From an uncultured euryarchaeote (lineage in GTDB: Archaea; Thermoplasmatota; Poseidoniia; Poseidoniales; Thalassarchaeaceae), in the NCBI GenBank assembly GCA_937897085.1, contig CALCOR010000160.1, forward strand, positions 1 through 10,801: 10,801 nucleotides of DNA. Reading direction: 5' to 3'. Below the pieces are notes generated by a model. It did no database searches. It was given only the letters and a program-made list of their open reading frames with translations, and was not told where the DNA came from. The position numbers and the translations under genes are program-made. Positions 1,864-9,918 of this stretch are shown here, in pieces (position 1 is the first letter of the stretch; the number at the start of each line of letters is the position of its first letter).

Positions 1864-2011
1864 TCTCCAGTGGAAATAATGGTTTGGGACAGCGTTTTCG
1901 GCTGGAAACACTACCGATATTCAGAAACATTTATGAGCCGGACGCCCCTCAGGGAGGCTTGTCGCTCTTGAAGAGTGATGGGGAAGGCCTCGGCCGACCC
2001 TACGCCCAGCT

Positions 2012-2044
2012 GCCGGCGTGGGCCCTTCGGGGGCGAAAGTCGGC
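2012..2044 (+). other. RNA hairpin with UUCG loop and GAAA-containing internal loop
   Basis: GCCG (2012-2015) pairs with CGGC (2041-2044). Inside it CCC (2023-2025) pairs with GGG (2030-2032) across a UUCG tetraloop at 2026-2029. The internal loop between the two helices contains GAAA on its 3' side. C(UUCG)G is one of the most stable RNA tetraloops, and it forms only in the + strand transcript. Confidence 0.5.
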
Positions 2045-2071
2045 TGCCTTTGCGAGAGATTGCAGGGGCAA

Positions 2072-2113
2072 TGACTGGAGAGGAATCGACCTCGGTCGAG
2101 AGCTCGAAAGTCA
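2072..2113 (+). other. Two-tier RNA hairpin with CUCG loop
   Basis: The outer stem TGACT (2072-2076) pairs with AGTCA (2109-2113). The inner stem TCGAC (2086-2090) pairs with GTCGA (2095-2099) around the loop CTCG. The two stems are separated by a purine-rich internal loop of nine bases on each side. Just before it, ATTGC (2059-2063) pairs with GCAAT (2068-2072) around AGGG; that hairpin shares base 2072 with the outer stem. Confidence 0.5.
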
Positions 2114-2480
2114 CGCAGGAATTGATGGCCGTTACGGCGGTTGTCAGCCTGATCGAATGGGGTAGCGGACCTAAAGGAAAGCCGACCCAGACGGACAGGA
2201 CCAGGGGAGCGGAACCAATCGCAAGAGAGGGAAAGCGAACCACTCGCTGCGAGGAGTGAAGGTGATGGAACACGCATCGGCCGGAATCCGTGATGAGGGG
2301 GGGAGGAAACCGCAAGGCGACCGAACCACCACTGAGCAGAGGAAGATCGGAGCGTGGGATGCCTCTGGAACGAGACGTGGAGAGGGCTAAGTGAAACCGT
2401 CAGGCGGAACGAGGCCACCTGTGGCAGGGGATCGAACTGCGCTTCGGCAAAGTGAGAGAAACTGCGTCAGGGAAGGCGAA

Positions 2481-2502
2481 CCCTTCGACTTCGGTCGGGG
2501 GG
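2481..2502 (+). other. Nine-base-pair RNA hairpin capped by a UUCG tetraloop
   Basis: CGAC (2486-2489) pairs with GTCG (2494-2497) directly around TTCG (2490-2493). Below it two U-G pairs (2484-2485 with 2498-2499) and three C-G pairs (2481-2483 with 2500-2502) extend the helix to nine pairs without a gap. The two wobble pairs work only as RNA of the + strand: the complementary strand would have C-A mismatches there. This is the strongest single orientation signal in the region. Confidence 0.6.
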
Positions 2503-2580
2503 GGAGCTGACCCGAACCGGTGAAGAGGAATCGGTCGAAAGGCCAGGAAATCGGATCCGGGGGGGAAGCGAAGAACCCGA

Positions 2581-2650
2581 CGAACCAGAAGGGAACAGAA
2601 GGAACCGAAAGGAACCGGAAGGGAACAGAAGGAACAGAAGGAACCGACCA
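2581..2650 (+). repeat. Degenerate 10-base purine-rich tandem repeat
   Basis: About seven units follow one another with a 10-base period and approximate form GG(A/G)A(A/C)C(A/C)GAA; one unit is 9 bases. Two units are identical (GGGAACAGAA at 2591-2600 and 2621-2630). The block is almost free of T. Because the period is not a multiple of three, it does not look like a protein repeat. Within the candidate RNA it would be a largely unpaired purine-rich segment, possibly a protein-binding array. It could also be simple slippage expansion. Confidence 0.75.
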
Positions 2651-2699
2651 GAACCCAGCAGGGAGAAGAAGGGGACGCAAGGAACCGGATTCAAACTGC

Positions 2700-2779
2700 A
2701 CCAGCGGAGGCTGGTGGGCGGGGGAAGTTCGACCTCCGGATCGAACCCGCCCACCAGTTCTCCCAATCCCCCGTCTTTT
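2700..2779 (+). terminator. Long 3' hairpin followed by a T-run; probable end of the candidate RNA
   Basis: CTGGTGGGCGG (2711-2721) pairs perfectly with CCGCCCACCAG (2747-2757). After a 5-base bulge (2722-2726), GTTCGA (2727-2732) pairs with TCGAAC (2741-2746) around an 8-base loop. A second hairpin, ACCAGC (2700-2705) with GCTGGT (2710-2715), uses some of the same bases, so the two cannot both form fully. Twenty bases after the long stem comes GTCTTTT (2773-2779), the kind of T-run at which archaeal RNA polymerase stops. The long stem is certain as sequence; its role in termination is inferred. The remaining bases 2780-2878, before the convergent fumarase stop codon, hold no feature I recognise apart from a 9-base direct repeat (CTCGAAGCC at 2830 and 2867). 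Confidence 0.55.
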
Positions 2780-2878: not shown

Positions 2879-4477
2879 TCACTCCCCGGTCATGCTCTCT
2901 GGGCGCACCCACTCATCGAACTGCTCGTCTGTCAACAGGCCCAGTTCGAGCGCGCTCTGACGCAGGGTGGTGCCGTTCTCATGGGCTTGTTTGGCGATCT
3001 TGGCAGCGTTGTCATAGCCAATGTGCGGGTTGAGCGCAGTCACCAGCATCAGCGAGTTCTCGAGGTGAGAGGCGATGTTCTCTTCATTGGCTTCCAGCCC
3101 GGTGACGCAGCGGTCAGCGAAGGAGCGACAGGAGTCGGACAGCAGGCGGATGCTGTGCAGCAGCGCGTGGATCATCAGCGGCTTGTAGACGTTCAACTCG
3201 AAGTTCCCCTGGCTTCCCCCCACAGTCACCGCAGCGTGGTTACCCATCACCTGGCAGCAGACCATCGTCAGTGCCTCCGCTTGGGTGGGATTGACCTTCC
3301 CGGGCATGATGCTCGAGCCCGGTTCGTTCGCTGGCAGTGACAATTCTCCGATGCCACAGCGCGGTCCGGAGCCGAGCCAGCGAATGTCGTTGGCGAGCTT
3401 CATCAGCGAGACGGCGAGAGTGTTCAGGGTGCCGCTCATCGCCACGATGGCGTCGTGGGCAGCGAGTTGGGAGAACTTGTTGTCGGCGGAGGTGAATGGC
3501 AGTCCGGTCCTGCGGGCGATACGCTCGGCCACCAATTCAGCGAACTCGGGGTGCGAGTTCAGTCCGGTGCCGACCGCGGTCCCACCTAGGGCGAGTTCGT
3601 GAAGGTCCTCGAGCGAGAACTCGATGCGGCGGATGTCGGCATCCAGTTGGGCCACATACCCGCTGAACTCCTGTGACAGGGTGAGCGGGACGGCGTCCAT
3701 CAGGTGGGTGCGCCCGATCTTCACGATGCCTTCGAACTCGGTGACCTTGGCTGCCAAGGATGTGCGCAGATGGTTGACCGCCGGCAGTAGCCGATGGCTG
3801 ATTTCCTCGGCGGCGGAGATGTGCATCGCGGTCGGAAAGGTGTCGTTGCTGCTCTGGCCCCGATTGACGTGGTCGTTCGGGTGTACCGGTTGCTTGCTGC
3901 CTAGTTCACCGCCGGCCATCTCGATGGCGCGGTTGGCGATCACCTCGTTGCAGTTCATGTTCGTCTGCGTTCCGGAACCGGTCTGCCAGATGCGCAGCGG
4001 GAAGTGTGAATCGAGTTCGCCCGAGATTACCTCGTCGCAGGCAGCGCCGATCAGTTCGCCCAGTTCCGTATCGAGTTCATCCAGTTCGACATTCGCCTCG
4101 GCTGCCGCTTGTTTGAGCACACCGAAGGCGTGGATGATCGGACGCGGCATCAGGTCGTCGCCGATGTCGAAGTTCAGCAGCGAGCGGGCTGTCTGCGCTC
4201 CCCAATAACGGTCGGCGGCAACCTCGAGCTCACCCATCGAGTCCCGCTCCAGGCGCACCTCGCTCGTACTCGCTTTGGCGGCGCGCTCGACGATGTCCTC
4301 GGGCACCTTGGACGGACCTTGCGCTTCCGATTCCATGCCCTGCTCGATCAGTCGAACGATGGTGGCCGAGCGTCCGTGCTCGCGCCCCCTCCCAACCTGC
4401 CTGTCGAGCCTGCGGGCCAGTTGTTCTGGCAGGCTCACGCTGATGATGCGACGGTCGCCCGCCCGGTGTCTCGCCAT
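2879..4477 (-). CDS. fumC: Class II fumarate hydratase with N-terminal ribbon-helix-helix DNA-binding domain
   Basis: The protein has 532 residues, compared with about 460 for usual class II fumarases. Residues ~76-532 are a complete fumarase, which reversibly hydrates fumarate to L-malate in the TCA cycle as a cytoplasmic homotetramer. Visible motifs are [10 protein letters not shown] (166-175), HPNDHVN (199-205), SSNDTFPT (209-216), [13 protein letters not shown] with the active-site-region histidine (His258), and the lyase signature [11 protein letters not shown] (387-397) with the catalytic-loop serine. The extra N-terminus, residues ~9-49, reads as a CopG/Arc-type RHH: strand RIISVSLP, helix [12 protein letters not shown], a short turn, then helix [15 protein letters not shown] ~25-residue linker joins it to the enzyme. 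The ORF is continuous and ATG 4477 lies just downstream of a TATA box, so the fusion start is well supported. An internal start at Met48 or Met81 would give plain fumarase. The gene order on this strand is pyrE, cyclophilin, then this gene, which has its own promoter. Confidence 0.95.
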
Positions 4478-5937: not shown

Positions 5938-8900
5938 ATGCCAGCAGGATGGGACGAGCAACGGCTCTCAGCCGAGATTGACGCCTATCAGGAGTGGCTC
6001 GACGAGCGCGCTGACGAGATCTATCTTGTCGCCGAAGAGGCGAAGGCGCTCGGCAAGGACTTCAGCGAGGTGGTCGAGATACCGCGGGCCGCCGATCTCG
6101 CTGGGCGCACCGAGAAGCTGCTTGAGGAGTATCTGGACGGCATGGAGATTGAAACCGAGTTGCGCCAACTGCTGCTGGAGGAGGACCGCGAGACGACCGC
6201 CATCGAGATGGCCACTCGTGTCGCTAGGCGCATGCACACCCGCACGAAGGATCTCGTTAAGGCGATTGATACCGGCTTGCGCGTTGGTCTCGCCATCCTC
6301 ACCGAGGCGGTGCTGGTCGCTCCGCTCGAGGGCATCGGCCGTGTCCAACTGCTGCACAACGAGGACGGCTCACAGTTCGTCTCCATCGATTTCTGCGGTC
6401 CCATCCGCGCCGCAGGCGGTACCGCCCAGGCGCTCGCCGTGCTCATCGCCGACGTCATTCGCCGCGAACTCGGGGTAGGCGCGTACAAGGCTCGCTTCGA
6501 TGAGGTGGAGCGGGTGAAGGAGGAGTTCGGTCTCTACCGCGGCAACCTGCAGTACCGCCCGCCGCCCGAGGAGGTGGAGATGATCGTACCTGCCTGCCCT
6601 GTGATGGTGAACGGGGAGTCGACGGAGAACATCGAATGCTCTGGTTTCCGTGATCTCGAGAACATCGAGGGAAACCGCGTGCGCGGTGGAGTCGTGCTGG
6701 TCATAGGGGAGGGACTGTGCTTGAAAGCGCCCAAGGTGCAGAAGCACACAGAGAGATTGCAGGTGTCCGGCTGGGAATTCATCACCCACTTCGCCAACAA
6801 GGGGAAGGATTCCGAGGAGAATGGTCAGGCCAGCCGACACAGACGCAGAATCGAAACGAACTCTCGCTTCATGGACGACATCATCGCCGGCCGTCCGGTG
6901 TTCGGAGAGCCCTCCAAACCAGGGGGCTTCCGCCTGCGCTACGGGCGTACGCGCGCTACCGGCCTTGCCGCAGGTGCGCTCAACCCCGTGACCATGCACG
7001 CGCTCGGTGAGTTCATCGCCGTCGGGACGCAGATGAAGATCGAGCGGCCCGGCAAAGCGTGCGCAGTCACACCCTCACACGATATCGAGGGGCCATGGGT
7101 GCTGTTCAGTGACGGAAATTTCGGCAGGATCGACCTGCTCGATGGCTGGAACCAGCTGGACGAGGCACCAGAGTGCATCTGGGACAACGGGGAGTTGATG
7201 CTCGGCTACGGTGAATTCCTCGAGAACAACAAGCCGTTGGTGCCATCGGCGTACAACCGCGACTGGTGGGCGGCAGACATCATCGCGGGACTCGTAGATG
7301 AGGACGCTGTCATCGACCTTGCCCAGTTGCTTGGCCTCCAGCGCTCTGAACTGCCCGAAGGCGTCCCTGTGACAGAGGTGGGGGGAGATGCGGTCAAGTC
7401 GGCGAGGAGCGGACGGCTGTGGAATCGCTTCCTGCGCGACATGCTCGTCGATTGGGAGGTGGCGAAGGGGATCATCGCTCGATTCCAGACAGCGGTGCCT
7501 TCTCCGTGGAACCTCTGGTGGGCCGACCTGCCGCTCGAGTGGACCGCACCGCTACGGGACCAACTGCTGAGAGCGACGACCGAACCGGGTTCTGCGGGAG
7601 CTCAGGATGGCTGGCGTGAATGGAACCCAGACGCAGCACGGCTGCGCCTTCCTACAGGCAGCAGCAGTGGGAAGCAGATTCGGTTGGTGGCAGCGAGAGA
7701 TGCTTCCGGAGTCGAGGTGCAACCCGATCGATTCCTTGAATCACTGCTCGTCGATCACGGCCTCGTCAAGTCCGCCTGTTTGGTACTGGGCGTGGCGCAT
7801 ATCCATGACGGCGATGATCTGCTTCTGCTCGAAGGCTGGGAGGGGCTGCTCGACGGACTCGGACTCGAGCAGGTCGATGGGGAGGTACGCTCGCGTACGG
7901 AACTCATCGCGAACCTCGACGAACGCCTCTCTCGAATCGCGCACGCGCGCCAGGTGGTGAGCAACGAGCGGCTCAGGAAGAAACTGATCGGAGCGGAGCA
8001 GGACGCCGTGCGCACTCAGGCGGAGACAGCAGCGCGTCAGCGAGGTGAGAGCATCGCCGCCACTGAGCGTGCTGGCGAGGACGCAGCCGGTGAGATCGAA
8101 GACGAGGGTCCCGAGGATGCAAATCGTCTGGAAGCTGCCGAGGCGCTGCTTGACGAGCATGAGGTCGACAGCACGATCTGGCTGGTGCGCCGCATCAGTG
8201 AACTGCGCTGGGAGAACGCCGCGCCGGTGCGCATAGGCGCGCGCATGGCGCGGCCGGAGAAGGCGGCGCACCGCGAAATGAAGCCCGCTGTCCACGCCCT
8301 GTTCCCAATCGCCACCGAAGGAGGCCCGCAGCGCCTGCTCCAAGCGGCGGCTGAACGTGGCTCTCTGCGCGTGCAACTCGGTGTGCGTGAATGCGTTCGC
8401 TGCGGCCTCCCCTCTCCGATGCTGAACTGTCATCATCGGATCGTGCCAGACGAGCATGCAACCTGCGGTGGCCGCACTGTCGAGAAGCAGCAGAGGCGCC
8501 CCTCCTGGCGCCGCCGCCGAGGCGAGTATCAATCGCTGCCCCTGCCACAGATGCTGGAGTCGGTGCGGGAGGGCTTGGGACTCGACCGTCTGCCGAAGAA
8601 GGTGAAATGCGTCAAGGGACTGATTTCAGCAAGTTGTACCCCTGAACCACTGGAGAAAGGGGTGTTACGGGCGAAGCACGGGCTACCAGTGTTCCGCGAT
8701 GGCACCATCCGCTTCGACATGAGCGACGTACCGGTGACCCATTTCCGGCCGTGTGAGATAGGCACATCTTGGAAGCGCCTGAAGGAACTCGGCTACACGC
8801 ACGACATCGACGGTGAGCGGCTGGCCTCCGACGAGCAACTGCTGGAACTCTACCCGCAGGACATGATTCCGTCGCGTAATTCCATCGAGCATCTCAGTGC

Positions 8901-9918
8901 CATCTGCGCTTTCATCGACGACCTGCTCACCCGTTTCTACGGTCTCGATCCGTTCTATTCCTTGGAGACGGAATCAGACCTCGTCGGCCAACTCGCCATC
9001 GGGCTCGCCCCGCACACCTCAGGTGGGGTGCTGTGCCGCATCATCGGATTCACCAAAGCCTCTGGTGGATACGCCCACACCCTGTTTCACGCCGCAAAAC
9101 GGAGAAATTGCGATGGAGATGAAGATTCAATCATGTTGCTGCTCGACGGCCTGCTCAACTTCTCTCGCGAGATCCTTCCCGCCAACCGCGGCGGCCGCAT
9201 GGACGCACCGTTGGTGCTTACCACCCGGCTGAATCCCACTGAACTCGACAAGGAGGCGCTCAACGTCGACTGCGCCTGGTTCTACGACCGTCGCTTCTTC
9301 GAGGCGACGCTCACACAGCCACACCCCAAGGAGCTCGACGACAGCATGGACTACGCCGAGCGGCGCATCGGCAGCATCGGTGCGGTTCGTGGTTACGGAT
9401 TCACACATGGACTGGACTCGCTGGACTCGGGGCCGACTAATTCGGCGTACAAGATCCTGGAGACGATGGTGGACAAGATGAATGCCCAGTTGGAGCTTGG
9501 AGGAAGACTACGCTCCGTAGACGTGCAGACCGTCGCTTCCTTGGTGGTGGAGGGACACTTCTTCCCCGACCTGCGCGGCAACCTTGTCGCCTTCACCCGC
9601 CAGAAGGTCAGGTGCGGTCGTTGCGGCTATTCATACCGCCGCCTGCCGCTCGCCGGCAAGTGCATCCGTCGTCGCCGTGGAGGAAGGGAATCAGGGCTGT
9701 GGGGCCGTTCGAGCGGGCAGGACCAGTGTGGGGGCAACCTGATCATGACGGTGTCAGAGGGAGCCGTCCGCAAATACGTCAAGGTGGCAGAGCACGTTAT
9801 GGAAACCTACGACACGTCGGTATACACGCAGCAGAAGTATACCTGGCTTGCTGAAACACTCGACGGATTGTTTGCCAACGAGCGCATCAAGGTCTACACC
9901 CTCGACGACTTCGTCTGA
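5938..9918 (+). CDS. polC: DNA polymerase D large (catalytic) subunit DP2
   Basis: The protein has 1326 residues, full length for the family and without an intein. With the small subunit DP1 (exonuclease, not in the window) DP2 forms PolD, the archaeal replicative polymerase with a two-barrel active site related to RNA polymerase. Conserved blocks in order are CGPIRAAGGTAQA (153-165), YRPPPEEVEMIVPACPVMVN (206-225), IGARMARPEKA (766-776) and the active site RRNCDGDED (1055-1063), in which Asn1057, Asp1059 and Asp1061 correspond to the metal-binding residues. A charged, probably coiled-coil linker runs from about 675 to 745. Putative zinc ligands are C819, C822, C831 (with H832, H833) and C843, and near the C-terminus C1226, C1229, C1242 and C1264. 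The last residues, TLDDFV, resemble the hydrophobic half of a PCNA-interacting box. Start ATG 5938 follows GAGGG by six bases. The pyrE gene is divergent. Confidence 0.97.
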   Translation: MPAGWDEQRLSAEIDAYQEWLDERADEIYLVAEEAKALGKDFSEVVEIPRAADLAGRTEKLLEEYLDGMEIETELRQLLLEEDRETTAIEMATRVARRMHTRTKDLVKAIDTGLRVGLAILTEAVLVAPLEGIGRVQLLHNEDGSQFVSIDFCGPIRAAGGTAQALAVLIADVIRRELGVGAYKARFDEVERVKEEFGLYRGNLQYRPPPEEVEMIVPACPVMVNGESTENIECSGFRDLENIEGNRVRGGVVLVIGEGLCLKAPKVQKHTERLQVSGWEFITHFANKGKDSEENGQASRHRRRIETNSRFMDDIIAGRPVFGEPSKPGGFRLRYGRTRATGLAAGALNPVTMHALGEFIAVGTQMKIERPGKACAVTPSHDIEGPWVLFSDGNFGRIDLLDGWNQLDEAPECIWDNGELMLGYGEFLENNKPLVPSAYNRDWWAADIIAGLVDEDAVIDLAQLLGLQRSELPEGVPVTEVGGDAVKSARSGRLWNRFLRDMLVDWEVAKGIIARFQTAVPSPWNLWWADLPLEWTAPLRDQLLRATTEPGSAGAQDGWREWNPDAARLRLPTGSSSGKQIRLVAARDASGVEVQPDRFLESLLVDHGLVKSACLVLGVAHIHDGDDLLLLEGWEGLLDGLGLEQVDGEVRSRTELIANLDERLSRIAHARQVVSNERLRKKLIGAEQDAVRTQAETAARQRGESIAATERAGEDAAGEIEDEGPEDANRLEAAEALLDEHEVDSTIWLVRRISELRWENAAPVRIGARMARPEKAAHREMKPAVHALFPIATEGGPQRLLQAAAERGSLRVQLGVRECVRCGLPSPMLNCHHRIVPDEHATCGGRTVEKQQRRPSWRRRRGEYQSLPLPQMLESVREGLGLDRLPKKVKCVKGLISASCTPEPLEKGVLRAKHGLPVFRDGTIRFDMSDVPVTHFRPCEIGTSWKRLKELGYTHDIDGERLASDEQLLELYPQDMIPSRNSIEHLSAICAFIDDLLTRFYGLDPFYSLETESDLVGQLAIGLAPHTSGGVLCRIIGFTKASGGYAHTLFHAAKRRNCDGDEDSIMLLLDGLLNFSREILPANRGGRMDAPLVLTTRLNPTELDKEALNVDCAWFYDRRFFEATLTQPHPKELDDSMDYAERRIGSIGAVRGYGFTHGLDSLDSGPTNSAYKILETMVDKMNAQLELGGRLRSVDVQTVASLVVEGHFFPDLRGNLVAFTRQKVRCGRCGYSYRRLPLAGKCIRRRRGGRESGLWGRSSGQDQCGGNLIMTVSEGAVRKYVKVAEHVMETYDTSVYTQQKYTWLAETLDGLFANERIKVYTLDDFV

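Follow-up and report, generated by a model that had tools for sequence, protein, structure and literature searches.

What occupies the 1,086 bases, devoid of any recognised protein gene, that separate a beta-propeller gene (611-1792, + strand) from a fumarase gene (2879-4477, - strand, its stop at 2879) in an uncultured euryarchaeote? The bases lie in contig CALCOR010000160.1, one of the 376 contigs of assembly GCA_937897085.1; its 10,801 nucleotides are together called the window. A first-pass annotation, made from the letters of the window, had proposed a new large structured RNA in a gene-free stretch at 1868-2779. The gene-free character was borne out, in that the seven open reading frames (ORFs) of 94-165 amino acids between 1792 and 2879 matched no Pfam family. 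The RNA itself is also supported, with its start and terminator revised: approximately 1957-2780 on the + strand is very probably a member of a new class of large structured noncoding RNA, longer than ~400 nucleotides and with compensatory changes across many helices. The sequences compared here support such a class in Marine Group II archaea, with members of 0.43-1.3 kb between conserved ends and, as it appears, a conserved promoter of their own.

The distribution of the stretch among relatives was established by several searches (genera, genomes, contigs and loci carry the prefixes g, G, C and L). A nucleotide search found it in all three genomes of its own genus and in two further genera of the family, g8 and g9. 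Fumarase was detected in 129 of the 148 genomes of this first family, presumably Thalassarchaeaceae, the second family below being presumably Poseidoniaceae. We fetched 121 regions, 100 via fumarase and 21 (the window and L031-L050) via nucleotide matches to the RNA itself. Both RNA ends were present in 110 of them, covering all 11 genera of the first family, and in 91 of the 100 regions picked by fumarase alone; conservation in close relatives, on which the first-pass annotation had staked its proposal, thus reaches across the family. Dropped from the set of 110 were loci at contig ends (L031, L032, L073, L121 and L139), loci where the RNA does not adjoin fumarase (L077, L080, L081, L132 and L134), and L075, which was missed by the end patterns and found by a covariance model of the 5′ domain (R1). 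R1 matched 111 of the 148 family genomes at E ≤ 0.01, and a hand count that adds the own matches of genera missed by R1 places the RNA in 128 of the 148; among the 20 others, G032, G035 and G061 have fumarase less than 300 nucleotides from a contig end.

Beyond this family, a weak R1 match in the second family (G317, E 0.009) sits behind fumarase and points towards it, the arrangement seen in the first family. With a model of the 3′ hairpin (R2), the RNA was detected in 59 of the class's 339 genomes; the second family accounts for 27 (22 in g13, three in g21 and two in g22), and no match fell among the genomes outside the order, apparently 21 in number (339 minus 318). R2 is tuned to one hairpin form and misses many first-family genomes that hold the RNA. 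Two weak R2 matches in g19 (E 0.003-0.009) were not counted, and the one that was read shows no such RNA. An exact 5′ pattern was found at 65 loci in named genomes, all labelled Euryarchaeota, Marine Group II, Poseidoniales, Thalassarchaeaceae or Thalassarchaeum. L172 (2455-2950, on contig C32 of G137; R1 match E 3.5e-4) holds a second gene, shorter than the first, that shares the promoter element and 5′ domain and adjoins an ORF that is moaA-like by eye; this gene is apparently that of a paralogous RNA.

Compensatory changes in the stems, the other property on which the proposal had been made to depend, are numerous and withstand cross-validation. RNAalifold structures predicted from one set of genera were tested on another, using 71 of the 110 RNAs (six genera, length under 700) in an alignment built on all together and without structure. 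The structure derived from g4 and g5 (23 sequences) comprises 143 pairs, 88.6% of which were canonical in g2, g6, g7 and g11 (48 sequences); 59 pairs showed double changes and 10 were significant in the test genera, compared with 37-46% canonical, 3-8 double-change and 0-1 significant pairs when the same pairs were slid by 1-3 columns. Likewise, the 145 pairs derived from g7 and g11 (34 sequences) were 83.7% canonical in g2, g4, g5 and g6 (37 sequences), with 47 double-change and 16 significant pairs (slid: 35-41%, 1-8 and 0-1). Outside cross-validation, 26 of 159 predicted pairs were significant, next to the cross-validated 10/143 and 16/145. For the branch of the window (g1 and g9, 10 sequences), where structure and test come from the same sequences, 183 pairs were 90.1% canonical with 63 double-change pairs, and slid pairs were 37-45% canonical with 4-9. 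The 3′ terminal hairpin was tested in six genera of two families (14 sequences), the alignment over all genera being poor and yielding 9 pairs only: its 16 pairs were 98.7% canonical, with double changes in 6 pairs and 29 cells (3.9 and 8.5 in shuffles), and slid pairs were 39-57% canonical.

Could the stretch instead be a coding gene that has decayed or is unusual, or else selfish DNA, in which structure arises by composition only? Frames of the minus strand do stay open over at least 90% of the RNA in 23 of the 110 relatives (plus-strand frames in 2), which would fit such a gene; we ascribe these open frames to low T content. The idea is already contradicted and exceedingly improbable, as slid structures were 0.35-0.46 canonical versus 0.84-0.92 for the structures themselves. 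Furthermore, gap lengths between same-genus pairs (pooled over pairs, hence not independent) leave a remainder of 1 on division by three in 562 cases, of 2 in 66 and of 0 in one, and this avoidance of multiples of three argues that the RNA is not coding. A conserved protein across the stretch, which the first-pass annotation had named as evidence to the contrary, was not encountered: there is no coding signal, nor a Pfam match in the seven ORFs.

The + strand is also the better folded one. In the window, its folding z-score was -2.67 (none of 20 shuffles was as good) compared with -0.65 for the - strand, and among one RNA from each of the 11 genera, the + strand had the lower z-score in all 11, with the - strand also below its own shuffles in 10. 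Hairpins capped by GNRA or UNCG number 7 on the + strand of the window (on average 3.1 in shuffles, of which 7 in 200 have as many as 7) and 3 on the - strand (on average 2.3 in shuffles); the 110 relatives together have 858 on the + strand and 95 on the -. Purines make up 63% of 1958-2780, as against 50% and 48% of the flanking genes read on the + strand, and average 64% over the 110 relatives. The stable hairpins, the strand-specific tetraloops and the purine excess had each been pointed out from the window, and each of these observations holds.

That the RNA matches no known class was likewise confirmed. Covariance searches with Rfam 15 (4,227 families) at gathering cut-offs gave no match in the whole window or in 10 relatives, and relaxed thresholds returned weak matches far below the cut-offs in the window and relatives; the models of OLE, GOLLD and ROOL, whose presence in Rfam is stated in a passage of PMC12286853, were among those searched and did not match. 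A blastn search of phage records gave no match. No earlier description of the RNA was found in open-licence PubMed Central papers, a collection that leaves out most subscription papers and preprints. Archaeal RNase P RNA (RF00373) and signal recognition particle (SRP) RNA (RF01857) resemble it as large structured archaeal RNAs with genes of their own; the stretch matches neither, and the genome encodes both at other places (G000:C292 and G000:C47), as do 38 and 34 of 40 relatives, respectively. No transfer RNA or tmRNA was found. The raiA-motif RNA (ModT) is smaller than the RNA described here. It is a conserved structured noncoding RNA of bacteria, as a section of PMC11706538 describes it, and differs in occurring in other phyla and in giving no Rfam-level match.

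Among large ornate RNAs, OLE RNA is similar in its length of ~600 nucleotides, intricate structure, conserved base stretches and unsettled biochemical function, and is dissimilar as a membrane ribonucleoprotein (RNP) component of Gram-positive bacteria, according to excerpts of PMC9723947 and PMC12265935; here, its Rfam model found no match. GOLLD and ROOL are comparable as ornate RNAs of ~660 nucleotides (ROOL env-120) to more than 800 (GOLLD); the latter combines a conserved region with a variable one, and both RNAs form RNA-only cages (all from parts of PMC12286853). In contrast to these, for which no covariance match was found, the present RNA is chromosomal, syntenic and archaeal, with one mobile-element relative. 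The large ornate RNAs that our literature search turned up are bacterial or phage-borne.

The start of the RNA is read from its upstream region; along this stretch we distinguish the following features:

1865-1886, + strand: conserved upstream site CTCCAGTGGAAA..GGT, with the near-palindrome TCCA-N-TGGA
1895-1908, + strand: second conserved upstream site TTTTCGGCTGGAAA, recognised by eye ahead of the RNA in g1, g3, g8 and g9
1925-1934, + strand: B recognition element (BRE)/TATA promoter element AAACATTTAT, the same element being found in relatives at fixed spacing
1957-2780, + strand: noncoding RNA, with a start predicted from promoter spacing and an end predicted from the last conserved helix

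The BRE/TATA element starts 34-36 nucleotides 5′ of the 5′ hairpin in 107 of the 110 relatives, and because of it we place the RNA start near 1957, at the foot of that hairpin. The TATA promoter of the first-pass annotation is thus present and conserved, but its position moves the start away from 1868; the bases near the start proposed there, 1865-1908, are the conserved upstream sites. At the other end, where a hairpin followed by a T-run had been described, the hairpin (2706-2763) is strongly conserved and the T-run is not, as TTTT occurs within 25 nucleotides 3′ of it in only 41 of the 110 relatives; the 3′ end is probably set by the terminal hairpin with its CUCCCA. It is from the conserved promoter that we infer independent transcription of the RNA. 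The site at 1865-1886 is possibly an activator or repressor site. Its TCCA-N-TGGA half-site pattern, picked after the sequences had been read, occurs within 132 nucleotides upstream in 106 of 107 relatives versus 1.2% of shuffled upstreams. A loose form of the site matches the window twice, at 1865 (+) and 9951 (-); one exact form has 22 matches in 146 genomes, of which 18 adjoin the RNA by hand comparison, 3 do not, and one (G007) was left unassigned. Ahead of fumarase, no such regulator site was found in any of 17 relatives, although one of these has N at that place. As the mark of a regulon, the site was rejected.

The surroundings bear on a further alternative, cis-regulation of the neighbours by a leader, a 3′ untranslated region or an antisense RNA to fumarase. 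Where contigs reach (own genus, g8 and g9), the gene order is M32 carboxypeptidase, beta-propeller, RNA, fumarase and cyclophilin; fumarase-based loci of the other 8 genera show M32, propeller, a gap of 0.67-1.06 kb and fumarase in 20 of 20, and the propeller was located in 71 of 80 further fumarase-chosen regions. The RNA follows the propeller on the same strand and is usually convergent with fumarase, an arrangement compatible with cis-regulation. Against this, fumarase is on the other strand, the promoter-like element keeps a fixed spacing to the RNA, and the RNA still stands 3′ of M32 and the propeller in genomes that have fumarase elsewhere (G124 and G129) or the cassette turned round (G016 and G021); moreover, some second-family loci (in g12, g17 and g20) have the propeller directly next to fumarase with no RNA between them. 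We regard cis-regulation as improbable. The conserved unit is M32-propeller-RNA, with fumarase a frequent neighbour, and the propeller is on that account a candidate partner of the RNA, though it also occurs without it.

Other observations concern the neighbouring genes. The beta-propeller (611-1792, + strand), just 5′ of the RNA where both were located, evolves fast, with 23-54% identity between genera. Fumarase begins with an ~80-residue N-terminal extension (window 4340-4444, - strand) that resembles a ribbon-helix-helix DNA-binding domain (PF01402 over residues 12-46, E 0.037, below the cut-off); in g3 and many second-family genomes, the fumarase match begins only near residue 70. Further along, 5938-9918 (+ strand) encodes the large subunit DP2 of the archaeal D-family DNA polymerase, with three Pfam DP2 domains.

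Within the RNA, the following parts were recognised, with the fraction of canonical cells in brackets:

1961-1979, + strand: 5′ local hairpin GUCGCUCU-UGA-AGAGUGAU
1962-2036, + strand: long-range helix of 12 pairs, 1962-1973 with 2025-2036, which shares its 5′ strand with the local hairpin and excludes it
1978-2003, + strand: arm of helices 1978-1983/1998-2003 (0.966, one double-change pair) and 1985-1988/1993-1996 (0.917, two)
2004-2023, + strand: arm of helices 2004-2007/2020-2023 (1.0) and 2008-2010/2015-2017 (0.867), no double changes
2038-2076, + strand: arm of three stacked helices (0.9-0.975; 0, 2 and 2 double-change pairs)
2086-2099, + strand: hairpin 2086-2090/2095-2099 (0.9; double changes in 4 of 5 pairs)
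2147-2200, + strand: purine-rich arm of three short helices with purine loops between them (0.867-0.966; 2, 1 and 2 double-change pairs)
2247-2430, + strand: long branched middle arm, outer helix 2247-2252/2425-2430 (0.833, one double-change pair)
2525-2660, + strand: purine-rich GGAA/GAA rods, for the most part gapped or not alignable in g9
2706-2763, + strand: 3′ terminal hairpin of GGAG, a 12-bp stem and closing CUCC, then an invariant CA

Of the hairpins that the first-pass annotation had singled out, those near 2072-2099 and 2711 carry compensatory changes, the one at about 2012 is kept without double changes, and the one at 2481 is absent from the consensus of g1 and g9. The loop of the 2086-2099 hairpin is CUCG in the window and UUCG in several relatives. 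A conserved 5′ domain and a conserved 3′ terminal hairpin frame a middle that gains and loses whole modules. Some stretches are very strongly conserved: GCGGGCCACA recurs in all 34 sequences compared from seven genera, and GGAG with CUCCCA in 30 of 30. The distance between the conserved ends ranges from 432 to 1,315 nucleotides, the upper value being one outlier with an insertion (the length outliers L084 and L114 carry insertions), and the RNAs of g8 reach 1,253. The alignment of g1 and g9 is gapped at 2525-2606, and the middle is variable in other genera as well. Whole parts may be repeated: 10 of 13 matched g8 genomes have the 3′ terminal hairpin twice, ~300 nucleotides apart (e.g., L043); in g3, an inner module of ~220-235 nucleotides is doubled in 2 of 6 RNAs (L054, L078); and in g10, the purine rod is repeated by eye (L066).

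This pattern can be read in more than one way. If the RNA were a large ribozyme, its active site would be built by the 5′ and 3′ domains, which are conserved, and the variable middle would be peripheral; the strongly conserved stretches just described and the complex, multi-branched fold would suit one. No Rfam ribozyme family matched, neither a substrate nor a splicing or cleavage context is known for it, and we find a ribozyme rather improbable. The purine-rich loops could alternatively bind a regulator or other RNAs, making the molecule a trans-acting sponge or guide, CsrB-like in its logic. Many repeated GGA/GAA units stand in symmetric loops, and the operator-like upstream site would suggest regulated dosage; as a sponge would not need terminal domains that stay constant or long helices with compensated pairs, this too seems unlikely to us. 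With its constant ends and variable body, we judge a scaffold likelier than an enzyme or a guide. Tentatively, the RNA may be the structural core of a particle, either an RNA-only assembly or an RNP, and would not act by base-pairing with messenger RNA. The two constant ends would define this particle, and purine rods capped by GNRA and UNCG loops would supply docking contacts.

The 5′ domain adds a possible dynamic element. Its strand 1961-1973 can pair either with 1972-1979 or with 2025-2036. In the 10 sequences of g1 and g9, the local hairpin has 8 of 8 pairs canonical in every sequence, with three double-change pairs, and the 12-pair helix is 100% canonical with 5; in 34 relatives of seven other genera, the hairpin is canonical in 97.8% of cells and an equivalent 8-pair long-range helix in 98.2%. 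As two mutually exclusive pairings are each ~98-100% canonical with compensatory changes, the local hairpin may form early and later open into the long helix, a proposal for which we see about even chances. The 5′ strand would fold first as the hairpin and, after ~75 nucleotides have been made, shift to the longer helix with 2025-2036; this shift would order co-transcriptional folding or switch the particle.

Taken together, the combination of an RNA class, a particle scaffold and a 5′ rearrangement is, we think, the best explanation of the whole, held with moderate confidence. Several results weigh against it. When all pairs were tested for covariation without restriction, the 71 sequences yielded none at E < 0.05; the top ranks of that test hold many hairpin pairs that are 0.9-1.0 canonical and also non-canonical, phylogenetic pairs, the null itself scoring high, and significance was reached only when the pairs of the predicted structure were tested. 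The 8-pair long-range helix has one double-change pair, no more than shuffles (0.9). The fold z-score of the window is modest, and strings of the GAAA receptor are rare (CCTAAG in 6 of 110 relatives, TATGG in 12). Lastly, R2 with laxer filters gave no convincing match in 8 of 11 second-family genera (g12 and g14-g20); the same search missed 2 of 4 known holders (G141 and G120), so its silence is weak evidence of absence.

One relative lies outside the archaeal genomes. The IMG/VR contig IMGVR_UViG_3300007514_000005 (72,008 bp; L296:1527-1985) carries the same promoter and 5′ hairpin with another body; this single contig was found by the 5′ hairpin pattern and again by a TATA-plus-hairpin pattern. 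Its promoter and 5′ end align to RNAs of g2 and g7 with a score of 55 versus at most 30 in 200 shuffles, a score in which the share of the hairpin was selected by the search and that of the promoter, at its usual spacing, was not. Its R1 score is just 11.1 bits (E 0.1), and its fold does not stand out (z -1.43). Products encoded on the contig include a family B DNA polymerase, a clamp loader and DUF932 proteins, and no capsid gene was found in the ORFs tested; the contig could be a virus or another mobile element such as a plasmid. Over 3.2 kb read by eye, the contig is littered with the short motif TTTGTAGC. More speculatively, and with considerable doubt, the RNA might be an archaeal counterpart of ornate RNA nanostructures: a particle made of RNA in Poseidoniales, with rods gained and lost as modules and a programmed 5′ rearrangement, whose promoter and 5′ domain were taken by a virus or mobile element with a body of its own.

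According to a portion of PMC10160649, Marine Group II archaea rank with the most abundant microbes of the surface ocean. Given this abundance, the synteny of the RNA and its dozens of compensated pairs, a common ocean lineage appears to keep a big RNA. With more than 100 natural variants available, its expression, assembly, binding and carriage by a mobile element are directly testable. The RNA is very probably new as a class and, if it is a cage or scaffold, would join the ornate RNAs as an unrelated member.
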